From assembly GCA_016197345.1 (NCBI GenBank), contig JACPVY010000110.1:1-11518 (forward strand): a stretch of 11,518 nucleotides of DNA, written 5' to 3'. The notes below the pieces were generated by a model. That model did not search any database. It was not told where the DNA came from and worked only from the letters and a program-made list of their open reading frames with translations. Shown piece by piece: positions 3,190 to 6,633 of the stretch (the stretch's first letter is position 1; each line of letters starts with the position of its first letter). Origin of the DNA: Burkholderiales bacterium (GTDB lineage Bacteria; Pseudomonadota; Gammaproteobacteria; Burkholderiales; Burkholderiaceae_D). A program made the position numbers and the translations under genes.

Positions 3190-3939
3190 TTATTTTGCTT
3201 TGGTAATATAAATGTTGGTGCCTGGGCAGGTGCCGGTAATTGCACCATCCAACACCAAAGAGCTATTTGCAGGGAAACTGCTCAAGCGAGTTTGATCCAA
3301 ATTAATCCATGCTTCGGTGAAATAGCTCACGCCATTATATTTCGTGCATTGCAATGCCACGGCAGCGGTGCTACCTGAACCAAAAGCTGAACCAAAAGCC
3401 GACAATAATTGGCTACGGCTGACATTTTTGCCTTGGTTATTGCGAACAAAATTGGCAAAAGACGTGGTATTCAAACGGGAAATCAAGCTATCTGCGCTCG
3501 CCCAATAGGTGTCCGGGGTTGCATTAGCGCAGCTACCGTGTTTGTACCATTCGTGCTTGTCGAGGCAAGATTGCACGCCCGGCATATACATTGCCAAGTT
3601 ATTCATTGTACTGCTGCTGGCGCCATAATTAGCCATACTGCACCAAGTAGTTGGCGTATCTAAATTGATTTGGGTTTGCGAAACGCCGCAATAAAAAGGA
3701 TGGTTGCCATCATAAGCATTTGGCCACAAACCGTGCAAATCGAAATTGGTAGCGGCATAGGTGCCAACTAAATTCGTGCATTCTGGTTTGCCGGGATGAG
3801 TCGCGCAAAAACCTGGCTGCCAAGAAGCGGCCAGCAAATAATAATCAAAACTTGCAGCGCTTGCATTACCTGCCAATACCATGACCGCAGTTGCTAATAA
3901 AGTCTTCTTTACGCTCTTTTTTACACTAAATAAGCTCAC
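3190..3939 (-). CDS. Secreted RNase T2-family ribonuclease (paralogue 2)
   Basis: The 249-residue product has a basic N-terminus (VKKSVKK), a hydrophobic segment and probable signal-peptidase cleavage after GNASA at residue 28. Both catalytic blocks are intact: HGLWP (His69) and KHEWYKHGSC (His129, Glu130, Lys133, His134). The cysteine pattern matches that of paralogue 1, and I count about 165 of 221 identical mature residues. I chose the GTG start at 3939 because GGAG lies eight bases upstream and the resulting signal peptide mirrors that of paralogue 1. The frame is open upstream to 4236, including an ATG at 4119 whose product would add a second hydrophobic segment (MRIFMLLSLTLPIVLALSS), but no ribosome site supports that longer form. 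Silent positions are more A/T-rich than in paralogue 1. It has its own terminator. Confidence 0.92.
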   Translation of the reverse strand: MSLFSVKKSVKKTLLATAVMVLAGNASAASFDYYLLAASWQPGFCATHPGKPECTNLVGTYAATNFDLHGLWPNAYDGNHPFYCGVSQTQINLDTPTTWCSMANYGASSSTMNNLAMYMPGVQSCLDKHEWYKHGSCANATPDTYWASADSLISRLNTTSFANFVRNNQGKNVSRSQLLSAFGSAFGSGSTAAVALQCTKYNGVSYFTEAWINLDQTRLSSFPANSSLVLDGAITGTCPGTNIYITKAK

Positions 3940-4013
3940 GTCTGATTCTCCAAGAATGTCGAAATAAACTTGCGGCGGCATGGCTGCAAGTAGAAAAGGT
4001 AAAAAGGCGCCAT

Positions 4014-4062
4014 CAATGCGGGGACACACCCAACATTGTCTTGTCCCAATTAAGGAGGACAA
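4014..4062 (-). promoter_or_regulatory. Cluster of TGTCCC/GGGACA repeats upstream of RNase T2 paralogue 2
   Basis: On the coding strand TGTCCC, one base, GCATTG occupies 4026-4014 and ends 74 bases before the GTG start, as in paralogue 1. GGGACA (4021-4026) and TGTCCC (4042-4047) form an inverted repeat with 15 bases between. TTGTCC (4041-4046) and GGACAA (4057-4062) form a second dyad with a 10-base spacer. These may be operator half-sites or alternative leader hairpins. Confidence 0.35.
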
Positions 4063-4128
4063 GGCCAAGACTATAGGCAGCGTTAATGACAGCAGCATGA
4101 ATATGCGCATTTTGCTCATATTGAAATG

Positions 4129-4137
4129 AATATACCA
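4129..4137 (-). promoter_or_regulatory. Extended -10 candidate for RNase T2 paralogue 2
   Basis: The minus strand reads TGG TATATT (five of six -10 bases plus the TG extension) in AT-rich DNA. No good -35 is seen. Initiation here would give a leader of roughly 180 bases containing the repeat cluster at 4014-4062. Confidence 0.35.
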
Positions 4138-4387
4138 ATTAATCACATCAACAAATAAAAGCGCCTTGAAAAACACACTGGAGGACGGCAATGTGTTCGA
4201 CAACAATGAGAATGCATTGCGCAAAGCAACACTCAATTCTTATCAAGCTGCGCCCTTCTACGCCCCGCTTTCGCACAGAATTAACACTTTTGGCGCCACG
4301 TTTTCCCGTTTTCGTCGCAAAGCGCTACCACCTCGGCCTGCCGCTAGCGACAATGCATGCATCGACATACTTTCACTGGAATCTCAC

Positions 4388-4693
4388 ATGCAAACCAAAA
4401 TGAACACCCCATTCAATGGCAATAACAGCATTGCGCAGAATTACCGCGAAGCCGAACGCCGGGTCCATCGCAAATTGCAATTTTTCAATCACCTGATGAT
4501 GTTCGTGATTATCAGTTGTGGCTTGCTAGCGTATAACTTGCTGATGACGCCGCAGCATATTTGGGCGCTGTGGCCTATCTTTGGTTGGGGTTTAGGCATC
4601 ACGATGCATGCTTTACAGGTGTTCTTACACGGTTCAACTAGCCAGCTCAAGCAACGCATGATAGAAAGAGAAATCGATTCGCTGAAAAAATAA
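4388..4693 (+). CDS. 2TM-domain membrane protein of a LytS/LytTR operon
   Basis: The 101-residue protein has an N-terminal amphipathic segment (YREAERRVHRKLQFFNHL, about residues 19-36) and two transmembrane helices (about 35-54 and 59-78) joined by a short loop. It ends in a charged tail (QLKQRMIEREIDSLKK). This is the layout of the 2TM domain family, which is commonly found as a separate protein or N-terminal module beside LytS-type kinases and LytTR regulators; I infer a role in membrane sensing or kinase assembly. ATG 4388 is chosen over upstream in-frame starts because the family homology begins here and a weak GGA lies seven bases before it. Eight bases separate it from the next gene, whose AAGG ribosome site overlaps this stop codon, so the two are one operon. 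Confidence 0.82.
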   Translation: MQTKMNTPFNGNNSIAQNYREAERRVHRKLQFFNHLMMFVIISCGLLAYNLLMTPQHIWALWPIFGWGLGITMHALQVFLHGSTSQLKQRMIEREIDSLKK

Positions 4694-4701
4694 GGTTCGT
4701 C

Positions 4702-5710
4702 ATGACCCAAGTGCGCCAAGCACCGGCTTCGCCAACACCGCCAGAGCATCCGCCCGCTCAAGTGGATGCTCTCGATCATGCAGAGCACGCGGCGCACGAC
4801 AGCGCTACGCCAGCCGCATCAATGGATTGGCAAAGGGTAGCGCGTGAATACCCGTTTATTGCCGCCGCCAATATAGCGATTGCGTCGGCCTTGACACTAA
4901 CCCATGCCACTAACGGGGATTTTGTTGAGAATCTGGTGTTTTCATTTTGCATTGGCAGCCTCGTTTCTTTTTTGATCCATGTTGGCGTTTGGCAATTAAA
5001 AAGCCGCCAGATCAAAATCACGACCGGCAAAATGGTAGCGGTGGCCCTGCTCGCATGCGTACTCGGAATCGGTATCGGCTTGGCAATAGGCAGCGTGCTG
5101 CTCGGTATTCCGGGCTATCTGGTAGCAGTCAACTTCCTCACGCAAAGCAATACCTATGTGGTGCTGCTGTTGTTGATGTGCTTGGTGGTCATGATTATTT
5201 TTTGGATACGCAGCAAGATGGAGCGGCTACGCGCCCACATTGCCCAAGAAAAATTACGGGCTGAGGAAAATGCACGGCGCAGCCTACAAGCGCAATTGCA
5301 ATTACTCCAAGCGCAAATCGAACCACATATGCTGTTCAATACGCTTGCCAATGTGCAAGGGTTGATTAGCTTTGACCCGCCGCGTGCAGCGGTGATGTTG
5401 GATCACTTGATTTTGTTTTTACGTGCCAGCTTGCAAGTGGCGCGCGCTGAGCACACGACACTCAAGGCTGAATTCCAACTGATGCAAGCCTACTTGGATT
5501 TGATGGCGATACGGATGGGATCGCGTTTAAGCTTTACGCTCGAACTGCCAGAAGAATTGAGCCGCCAGGCCATCGCCGCGCTTAGGTGTGACCAATATCC
5601 GCGAGCGCTTATTCGCTTTATATGGCGAACATGCGAGTTTGACGTTAGGGCCAAATCAACCGCAAGGCACGCTGGCGGAGATGCGCATTCCATTGTCGTC
5701 GCTGGCCTAG
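4702..5710 (+). pseudogene. LytS-type histidine kinase gene with internal frame-shifting deletion
   Basis: In frame 1 the kinase reads normally to ELSRQAIAAL (to about 5583), the point where relatives continue with PP.LLQPLVENAIKHG. In frame 2, from 5585, the DNA reads GVTNIRERLFALYGEHASL and on through GTLAEMRIPLSSLA to TAG at 5708-5710, a textbook C-terminus of a LytS-type HATPase domain. The intervening ATPase core, which I estimate from the family at roughly 60-70 residues and which includes the Asn and Gly-rich boxes, is missing, and the two halves are out of frame. The intact ancestor would have ended at 5710, 44 bases before the regulator ATG. The sensor, dimerisation helix and His209 are retained. 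A sequencing or assembly error at 5575-5590 is a possible alternative, but it would have to remove a sizeable segment. Confidence 0.7.
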
Positions 5711-6633
5711 CGAATAGGCACTTTTCCTCGATTATTCTGACTACCGGAGTTGCTATGCCAAGCTCTTCACATCCACCCCACCCTATCGCTCACCGTGCGT
5801 TGATTGCGGAAGATGAGCCGATACTCGCCACCGCACTCAGCCATGCGCTCAAGCGCTTGTGGCCAGCGCTGCAGATCGAGGATATCGCGATGAATGGTCA
5901 AGAAGCGGTTGCCAAAGCCTTGCAGCAAAAACCGGATGTGATGTTTTTCGATATCAAAATGCCCGGCAAAACCGGGCTAGAGGCGGCGCAAGAATTGGTG
6001 GAAGAATGGCCATCGCAAGAGCCATTTCCCTTGCTGGTCTTTGTCACCGCATATGACGAATTTGCCGTGCAAGCCTTTGAATTAGCCGCGCTCGATTATT
6101 TGCTCAAGCCGATTAACGATGCGCGTTTGATGCGCACCATTGAACGCCTACAAATCAAACTCGATGGCCGCAAAGAAGAGCATACGCTAGACTCCAGCCG
6201 CGCTACCGCCGCGCAACTAGGCGTGAGCACGCTTGATCCGGCGCTCTTGCAATTGGTGCAAAGCCTGCAATTGATGCTACCGCAAGCGGCACCCGCAACG
6301 ACTACAGAAACGCTACGCTTTGTGCGCGCAGCGATTGGCAATCAAGTCAAAATGATTCCGATTGAAGAGGTGATTTATTTTGAGGCGACCGATAAATACG
6401 TCAACGTCATCAGTTTGGAAGGCGAAGCGCTGATACGCACGAGCTTGCGTGATTTACATAGCCAACTCGATAGCAAGCAATTCTGGCAAATCCATCGCGG
6501 CACGATAGTCAACTCCAGTTTCGTGCAAGCTGCGCTACGCGATGAAGGGGGCAAGATCAGCGTTAAATTGCGCCATCGCAGCGAAAATCTGCGCGTTTCC
6601 CCCGTGTATGCGCACTTATTTAAACAAATGTAA
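4702..6633 (+). CDS. Fused ORF: LytS-type sensor kinase lacking its ATPase core, joined to a LytTR response regulator
   Basis: The uninterrupted 643-codon frame holds four transmembrane helices (about residues 51-68, 77-97, 111-134, 150-170), a coiled coil (171-205) and the phosphoacceptor block QIEPHMLFNTL (His209). These belong to a LytS/YehU-type kinase. The match stops near residue 293. Residues 295-351 match nothing, because the DNA there encodes the kinase tail in another frame. From residue 352 a complete response regulator follows: receiver (Asp417 in FFDIKMPG, acidic pair ED at 370-371) and a LytTR DNA-binding domain from about residue 535 to the end. The N, G1 and F boxes of the ATPase are absent, so autophosphorylation is not expected. 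The fusion looks like the result of a frame-shifting deletion, not an evolved hybrid kinase. The regulator probably also has its own start at 5755. Whether a full fusion protein is made cannot be told. Confidence 0.75.
   Translation: MTQVRQAPASPTPPEHPPAQVDALDHAEHAAHDSATPAASMDWQRVAREYPFIAAANIAIASALTLTHATNGDFVENLVFSFCIGSLVSFLIHVGVWQLKSRQIKITTGKMVAVALLACVLGIGIGLAIGSVLLGIPGYLVAVNFLTQSNTYVVLLLLMCLVVMIIFWIRSKMERLRAHIAQEKLRAEENARRSLQAQLQLLQAQIEPHMLFNTLANVQGLISFDPPRAAVMLDHLILFLRASLQVARAEHTTLKAEFQLMQAYLDLMAIRMGSRLSFTLELPEELSRQAIAALRCDQYPRALIRFIWRTCEFDVRAKSTARHAGGDAHSIVVAGLANRHFSSIILTTGVAMPSSSHPPHPIAHRALIAEDEPILATALSHALKRLWPALQIEDIAMNGQEAVAKALQQKPDVMFFDIKMPGKTGLEAAQELVEEWPSQEPFPLLVFVTAYDEFAVQAFELAALDYLLKPINDARLMRTIERLQIKLDGRKEEHTLDSSRATAAQLGVSTLDPALLQLVQSLQLMLPQAAPATTTETLRFVRAAIGNQVKMIPIEEVIYFEATDKYVNVISLEGEALIRTSLRDLHSQLDSKQFWQIHRGTIVNSSFVQAALRDEGGKISVKLRHRSENLRVSPVYAHLFKQM
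5755..6633 (+). CDS. LytTR-family response regulator, as a separate gene from its own start
   Basis: From the ATG at 5755, with GGAG five bases upstream, the product is a 292-residue response regulator. The receiver domain (about residues 13-130) has the acidic pair Glu19-Asp20, the phosphoacceptor Asp66 in FFDIKMPG, a Thr in VFVTAYD and the conserved Lys in YLLKPIN. A linker follows. The C-terminal LytTR domain (about 184-292) contains IPIEEVIYFEATDKYVNV and FWQIHRGTIVNSSFV, the usual DNA-binding signature. It should bind direct-repeat promoter sites when phosphorylated. It lies in the same frame as the disrupted kinase and is therefore also the C-terminal part of the fused ORF. The strong ribosome site and the vestigial kinase stop at 5710 argue that it was, and may still be, translated separately. 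With its partner kinase disabled it would need another phosphate donor. Confidence 0.8.
   Translation: MPSSSHPPHPIAHRALIAEDEPILATALSHALKRLWPALQIEDIAMNGQEAVAKALQQKPDVMFFDIKMPGKTGLEAAQELVEEWPSQEPFPLLVFVTAYDEFAVQAFELAALDYLLKPINDARLMRTIERLQIKLDGRKEEHTLDSSRATAAQLGVSTLDPALLQLVQSLQLMLPQAAPATTTETLRFVRAAIGNQVKMIPIEEVIYFEATDKYVNVISLEGEALIRTSLRDLHSQLDSKQFWQIHRGTIVNSSFVQAALRDEGGKISVKLRHRSENLRVSPVYAHLFKQM

Follow-up and report, generated by a model that had tools for sequence, protein, structure and literature searches.

The locus described here raises a simple question: has a LytS-type sensor kinase been joined to its LytTR response regulator as one membrane-tethered protein, or has the kinase broken, leaving an open frame that happens to read into the next gene? 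The initial annotation had allowed for both outcomes. The window, by which we mean the whole stretch of 11,518 nucleotides that was analysed, is the entire contig 657 of a draft metagenome-assembled genome of a Burkholderiales bacterium (2,995,108 bases in 675 contigs, 68.17% complete). We suggest that it most likely holds an ordinary broken kinase, or else an assembly fault, and that the fused ORF is a by-product.

The open frame and its setting

The 643 codons of the fused ORF (Table 1) run with no interruption anywhere, which confirms the earlier statement that this frame by-passes the ancestral stop and joins sensor to regulator. A Pfam scan assigns to it His_kinase (PF06580, residues 197-276), Response_reg (PF00072, 367-480) and LytTR (PF04397, 548-642); the same scan found no HATPase_c. 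The kinase part contains three hydrophobic stretches inside residues 74-174 and, by motif, its phosphoacceptor His at residue 209. Of the features by which an active LytS-type kinase would be recognized, the ORF thus has the PF06580 domain with its His and lacks an in-frame HATPase_c domain with N box and G boxes. The LytTR response regulator is present with both its receiver Asp (fused residue 417, in a DIKMP motif) and its DNA-binding domain. Membrane segments and a DNA-binding domain do share one frame, as in a transmembrane one-component regulator, at the level of the ORF only.

The regulator is identical to P0197, a 292-residue protein on a contig of 1230 bp that belongs to a cluster of two members; that cluster may include the window's own gene call, and P0197 probably comes from this strain or from one close to it. 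Scored alone against the NCBIfam BtsR model, the regulator reaches 120.9 bits where the cut-off is 246, and so is not BtsR itself; BtsS/BtsR of Escherichia coli is the best-named kin of these LytS/LytTR pairs. Regulator relatives were not found in the viral_contigs scan.

As to the surroundings, a 2TM-domain match lies upstream of the kinase on the same strand in 24 of 80 related loci, because of which the 2TM-domain protein may belong to the system. None of the 80 kinase loci has a match to the first ribonuclease T2 gene, and the two such genes are likely a tandem duplicate. Scans for promoters and terminators gave results near chance (four promoter-like sites against a shuffle mean of 2.7, and five terminator-like sites against 3.8).

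Table 1. Features of the window, with positions counted from its first letter.
Feature	Position	Strand	Basis or remark
Two ribonuclease T2 genes, adjacent	1911-2669, 3190-4236	-	PF00445, E ~1.7e-21 each
2TM-domain protein, immediately 5' of the kinase gene	4403-4693	+	PF13239, E = 1.7e-21
Fused ORF	4702-6633	+	643 codons; most likely a by-product
LytS-type kinase, membrane part and His domain	4702-5577	+	PF06580, residues 197-276; 60-62% identity to near kinases
Apparent deletion junction	5578-5581	+	if colinear, ~164 nt lost: 56 codons, N and G1 boxes included
Kinase C-terminal tail, frame 2, old stop TAG 5708-5710	5582-5710	+	P0004, E = 5.5e-9; coding-like in frame 2 only
GGAG, ribosome-binding-like	5746-5749	+	5 nt ahead of the regulator ATG; read from the sequence
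LytTR response regulator, 292 aa, own ATG	5755-6633	+	Response_reg and LytTR; identical to P0197

The missing core and the surviving tail

Alignment with the nearest kinases locates the break. Residues 21-272 of P0004, a near kinase of 365 aa, match window positions 4828-5583. A second match, in the other frame, pairs residues 319-364 of P0004 with 5558-5695 (E = 5.5e-9, calculated for one genome); the frame-2 tail is therefore not a chance match, and that explanation was rejected. The kinase had been placed in frame 1 up to about 5583: the frame is right, but clear homology stops at 5577. Its last 41 residues had been placed in frame 2 up to the TAG, and there both the match to P0004 and codon usage agree. 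In eight of ten near kinases, the pattern ‘P[ML]LLQ’ is separated from a G2-like motif by exactly 56 residues (by pattern match; P0020 and P0121 gave no spacing, the pattern having no match in these two). The window carries 4 nt in that place, and therefore about 164 nt would be missing if the ancestor was colinear, which is the size that the alignment proposed in the initial annotation gives to the deletion. This length is not a multiple of three, and the frame shifts at the junction.

Inside the missing 56-residue stretch fall the motifs ENAIKHG and DTGLGL, which we take to be the N and G1 boxes, while LGVTNIRERL, presumably G2-like, is kept in the window but out of frame. The claim that the core with N and G boxes is absent hence stands for the N and G1 boxes and needs refining for the G2-like motif. 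That the ATPase core has been lost through an apparent frame-shifting deletion is supported by the near-kinase alignment and by the lack of HATPase_c. An imperfect inverted repeat of 14 nt (5604-5617 and 5709-5722, 86% complementary) has one arm in the kinase tail and the other spanning the old stop; it likely arose by chance. Direct repeats were not found in 5300-5800, which says little, because one copy would vanish with the deleted piece.

Codon usage divides the fused frame along the same lines. Under a model whose training set was six genes or parts of genes from the window (the regulator being one of the six), 5290-5577 scores +31.9 in the kinase frame (frame 1) and 5755-6050 scores +29.1 in frame 1. 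Between them, 5585-5707 scores +10.0 in frame 2 versus -14.6 in the fused frame, and 5711-5754 scores below zero whichever of the three frames is read. The linker of the fused ORF, residues 295-351, is the kinase tail and the intergenic gap read in another frame, and it bears no sign of coding use, since its scores in the fused frame are negative. An AlphaFold2 model of the fused ORF, built on an alignment of 20 rows, is of low confidence (mean pLDDT 62.1, pTM 0.36) and is used here only for an unstructured linker, residues 272-361 falling below 50 pLDDT. A search of solved structures returned receiver matches among the best 60 of 121.

The tail itself has kept pace with its intact counterparts. 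It is 54-62% identical to those of the five nearest kinases (membrane part 49-55%, His part 77-81%); between the intact P0003, P0004 and P0005 on one side and P0007 and P0009 on the other, the corresponding values are 65-70%, 58-60% and 84-92%. Against P0018, the window tail is 49% identical and the tails of the five intact near kinases are 49-51% identical. On these comparisons the tail shows little or no apparent decay, which would mean that the lesion is young, or not real.

We posit, as a fairly probable account, that the locus is a LytS/LytTR pair in which a recent and private deletion of about 164 bp has left a dead kinase and a regulator translated from its own start. The deletion would remove the N and G1 boxes and shift the kinase frame, and for these reasons the kinase should be unable to bind ATP. 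The regulator would still be made alone through internal initiation at ATG 5755, and would answer to other phosphate donors. There is a precedent in Staphylococcus aureus, where LytR is reported to be phosphorylated by acetyl phosphate with LytS bypassed, at about twice the rate seen with LytS (PMC4830213). The 643-codon fusion would be a by-product of a regulator frame that by chance meets no stop within the kinase tail, although some fused protein may also be made. Against this account, the junction has been seen once, and an undecayed tail equally fits an assembly fault.

Relatives and other fused gene calls

The initial annotation had proposed looking for the same junction in relatives, and the comparison did not find it in those inspected. 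The nearest kinases (P0003, P0004, P0005, P0007 and P0009) are 365-366 aa long, all with HATPase_c, and are 60-62% identical to the window over 85-86% of its 294-residue kinase part; these figures come from the best 120 of 2118 matches in a collection of 5.8 billion proteins, and 62% is the best identity among those 120. The fused 643-residue protein is absent among the 120 listed of 378 matches to the whole ORF (8000 candidates scored), and no relative inspected among the protein matches listed has the window's junction. The only other genome of the genus in the collection (n = 2), G001, encodes a 367-aa kinase that ends at a stop of its own and, as a distinct gene, a regulator of 281 aa, so that the same-genus orthologues are two genes where the window has a single ORF. 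The open-frame length of 667 computed for the G001 pair spans an intervening stop and was not used for judging fusion.

The same picture holds more widely. The kinase part was matched in 343 of 392 genomes of the family, with the window's own genome far ahead, and those relatives in the genome collection that bear a name belong to Undibacterium, Collimonas, Herbaspirillum, Massilia and their kin. All 80 of the genome_contigs loci surveyed (the best 80 of 175 confirmed) have a kinase ORF with an N box and without a receiver, and the window, included as a control, departs from this pattern. A further 29 loci (L009-L037) gave 25 that could be parsed (L026, L027, L030 and L036 did not), again all with an N box kinase lacking a receiver, although some of these appear to repeat the 80. 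This survey rests on motif patterns, that for G2 having been set aside after it missed most kinases. With the two genes separate in 80 of 80 loci and in G001, a shared ancestral fusion is rejected, and the architecture is not a conserved one, as would be looked for in a transmembrane one-component regulator. The Oxalobacteraceae-type LytS/LytTR pairs resemble the window in gene order and in having a membrane part, a His domain, a receiver and a LytTR domain, but in the window the ATP-binding core is missing and the frame is shifted. Elsewhere in the same draft, three other LytS-like loci (C110, C135 and C369) match P0004 through residues 349-362 without a stop.

Other fused calls do exist. The His motif is present in 186 of the 196 proteins listed by the searches with the fused ORF and the kinase, and the N box pattern in 183 of those 186, the exceptions being P0017, P0024 and P0186, the last with a variant N box. 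P0001 (641 aa) and P0002 (630 aa) are listed with the window's domains and no HATPase call; in both sequences the N box is retained and is followed by a stretch that appears to be in another frame. P0017 (423 aa; His domain, receiver and LytTR) and P0024 (451 aa; His domain and receiver) have no N box. Each of these four has one member on one contig. They share with the window a His domain and a receiver in one predicted protein, and P0017 and P0024 also the loss of the N box, which P0001 and P0002 keep; the junctions of all four differ from that of the window. Faulty sequence or separate breaks of a like kind could explain the four, and P0017 and P0024, singletons both, might be a sign that fusions of this type arise repeatedly in nature. 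P0015 (3 members) and P0016 (5 members) are also fused calls, but the His motif is lacking in both. These two and the four above each break at their own place, with a junk-like linker, and all six may be either frame faults or breaks that arose independently.

The layout of intact pairs suggests how a fused ORF might appear. In the 71 of 80 loci that were parsed for both genes, the regulator lies in the same frame as the kinase in 6, in +1 in 14 and in +2 in 51. In 60 of the 71, the regulator frame differs from that of the kinase and remains open through some or all of the interval between the N box and the kinase stop; in 29 it extends at least 126 nt into the kinase. Because it is open so often, a lesion that shifts the frame by the right phase can often yield a fused ORF without selection.

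A lesion is not the only source of such a junction. We think it possible, if on the doubtful side, that the kinase of the organism is intact and that about 164 bp were dropped from the metagenome contig through an assembly or chimeric-read fault. The fragmented draft (675 contigs, 68.17% complete), a junction private among all relatives inspected, a tail without decay and the similar singleton fused calls from metagenomes, which look like frame faults, would all fit such a fault. However, no other long ORF of the contig is interrupted, and the bin, itself incomplete, contains neither a second version of the stretch nor a contig with the missing core.

Tethered regulator or broken pair

The proposal of a membrane-tethered, kinase-free LytTR regulator, made and working as a single protein, strikes us as quite improbable. 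It draws on an open ORF of 643 codons with hydrophobic stretches and complete receiver and LytTR matches, on transmembrane regulators with response-regulator domains being known (PMC10269533), and on the Rsp protein of Neisseria gonorrhoeae, which joins sensor to regulator (PMC10269533). But the linker is not coding-like and falls below 50 pLDDT in a weak model, the regulator start is kept, and no inspected relative has the window's junction. A working or selected tethered regulator is therefore not supported by the linker or by the relatives, and the other outcome that the initial annotation allowed, a dead kinase with a regulator translated from 5755, is the better fit, ATG 5755 and its GGAG being kept. 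It is very improbable, in our judgement, that a young and real deletion has already turned the two-component pair into a one-component, tethered LytTR regulator, made as one protein, whose linker has not yet adapted, with P0017 and P0024 as independent cases of this step.

The gonococcal case is a precedent already in print. In two sources, rsp is a fusion of nps and npa and the remnant of a two-component system (PMC6528607, PMC10269533), and the Rsp protein is said by one of them to repress pilA (PMC10269533). As in the window, a sensor-kinase gene is joined to its regulator gene; in contrast, rsp is of the NtrC type and known from cultured strains, whereas the window encodes a LytTR regulator in an ORF seen once in a draft. 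Hybrid TTRs (transmembrane transcription regulators that carry receiver domains) would be the class of the fused protein, were it produced and functional (PMC10269533). That survey describes a widespread class (PMC10269533), whereas the fused ORF of the window is a singleton with a linker that does not look coding.

Returning to the account we favour, that of a private deletion, the finding would, if real, add another two-component pair decaying in this manner. It also carries a caution: fused kinase-regulator calls without HATPase can be by-products of frame shifts, because the regulator frame is so often open in the 3' part of the kinase (60 of 71 loci). Only with a fused protein that is produced and functional would the locus bear on the origin of membrane-bound one-component regulators. 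A two-component origin of these has already been raised in print, where Rsp is cited as hinting that two-component systems may have given rise to transmembrane regulators (PMC10269533).
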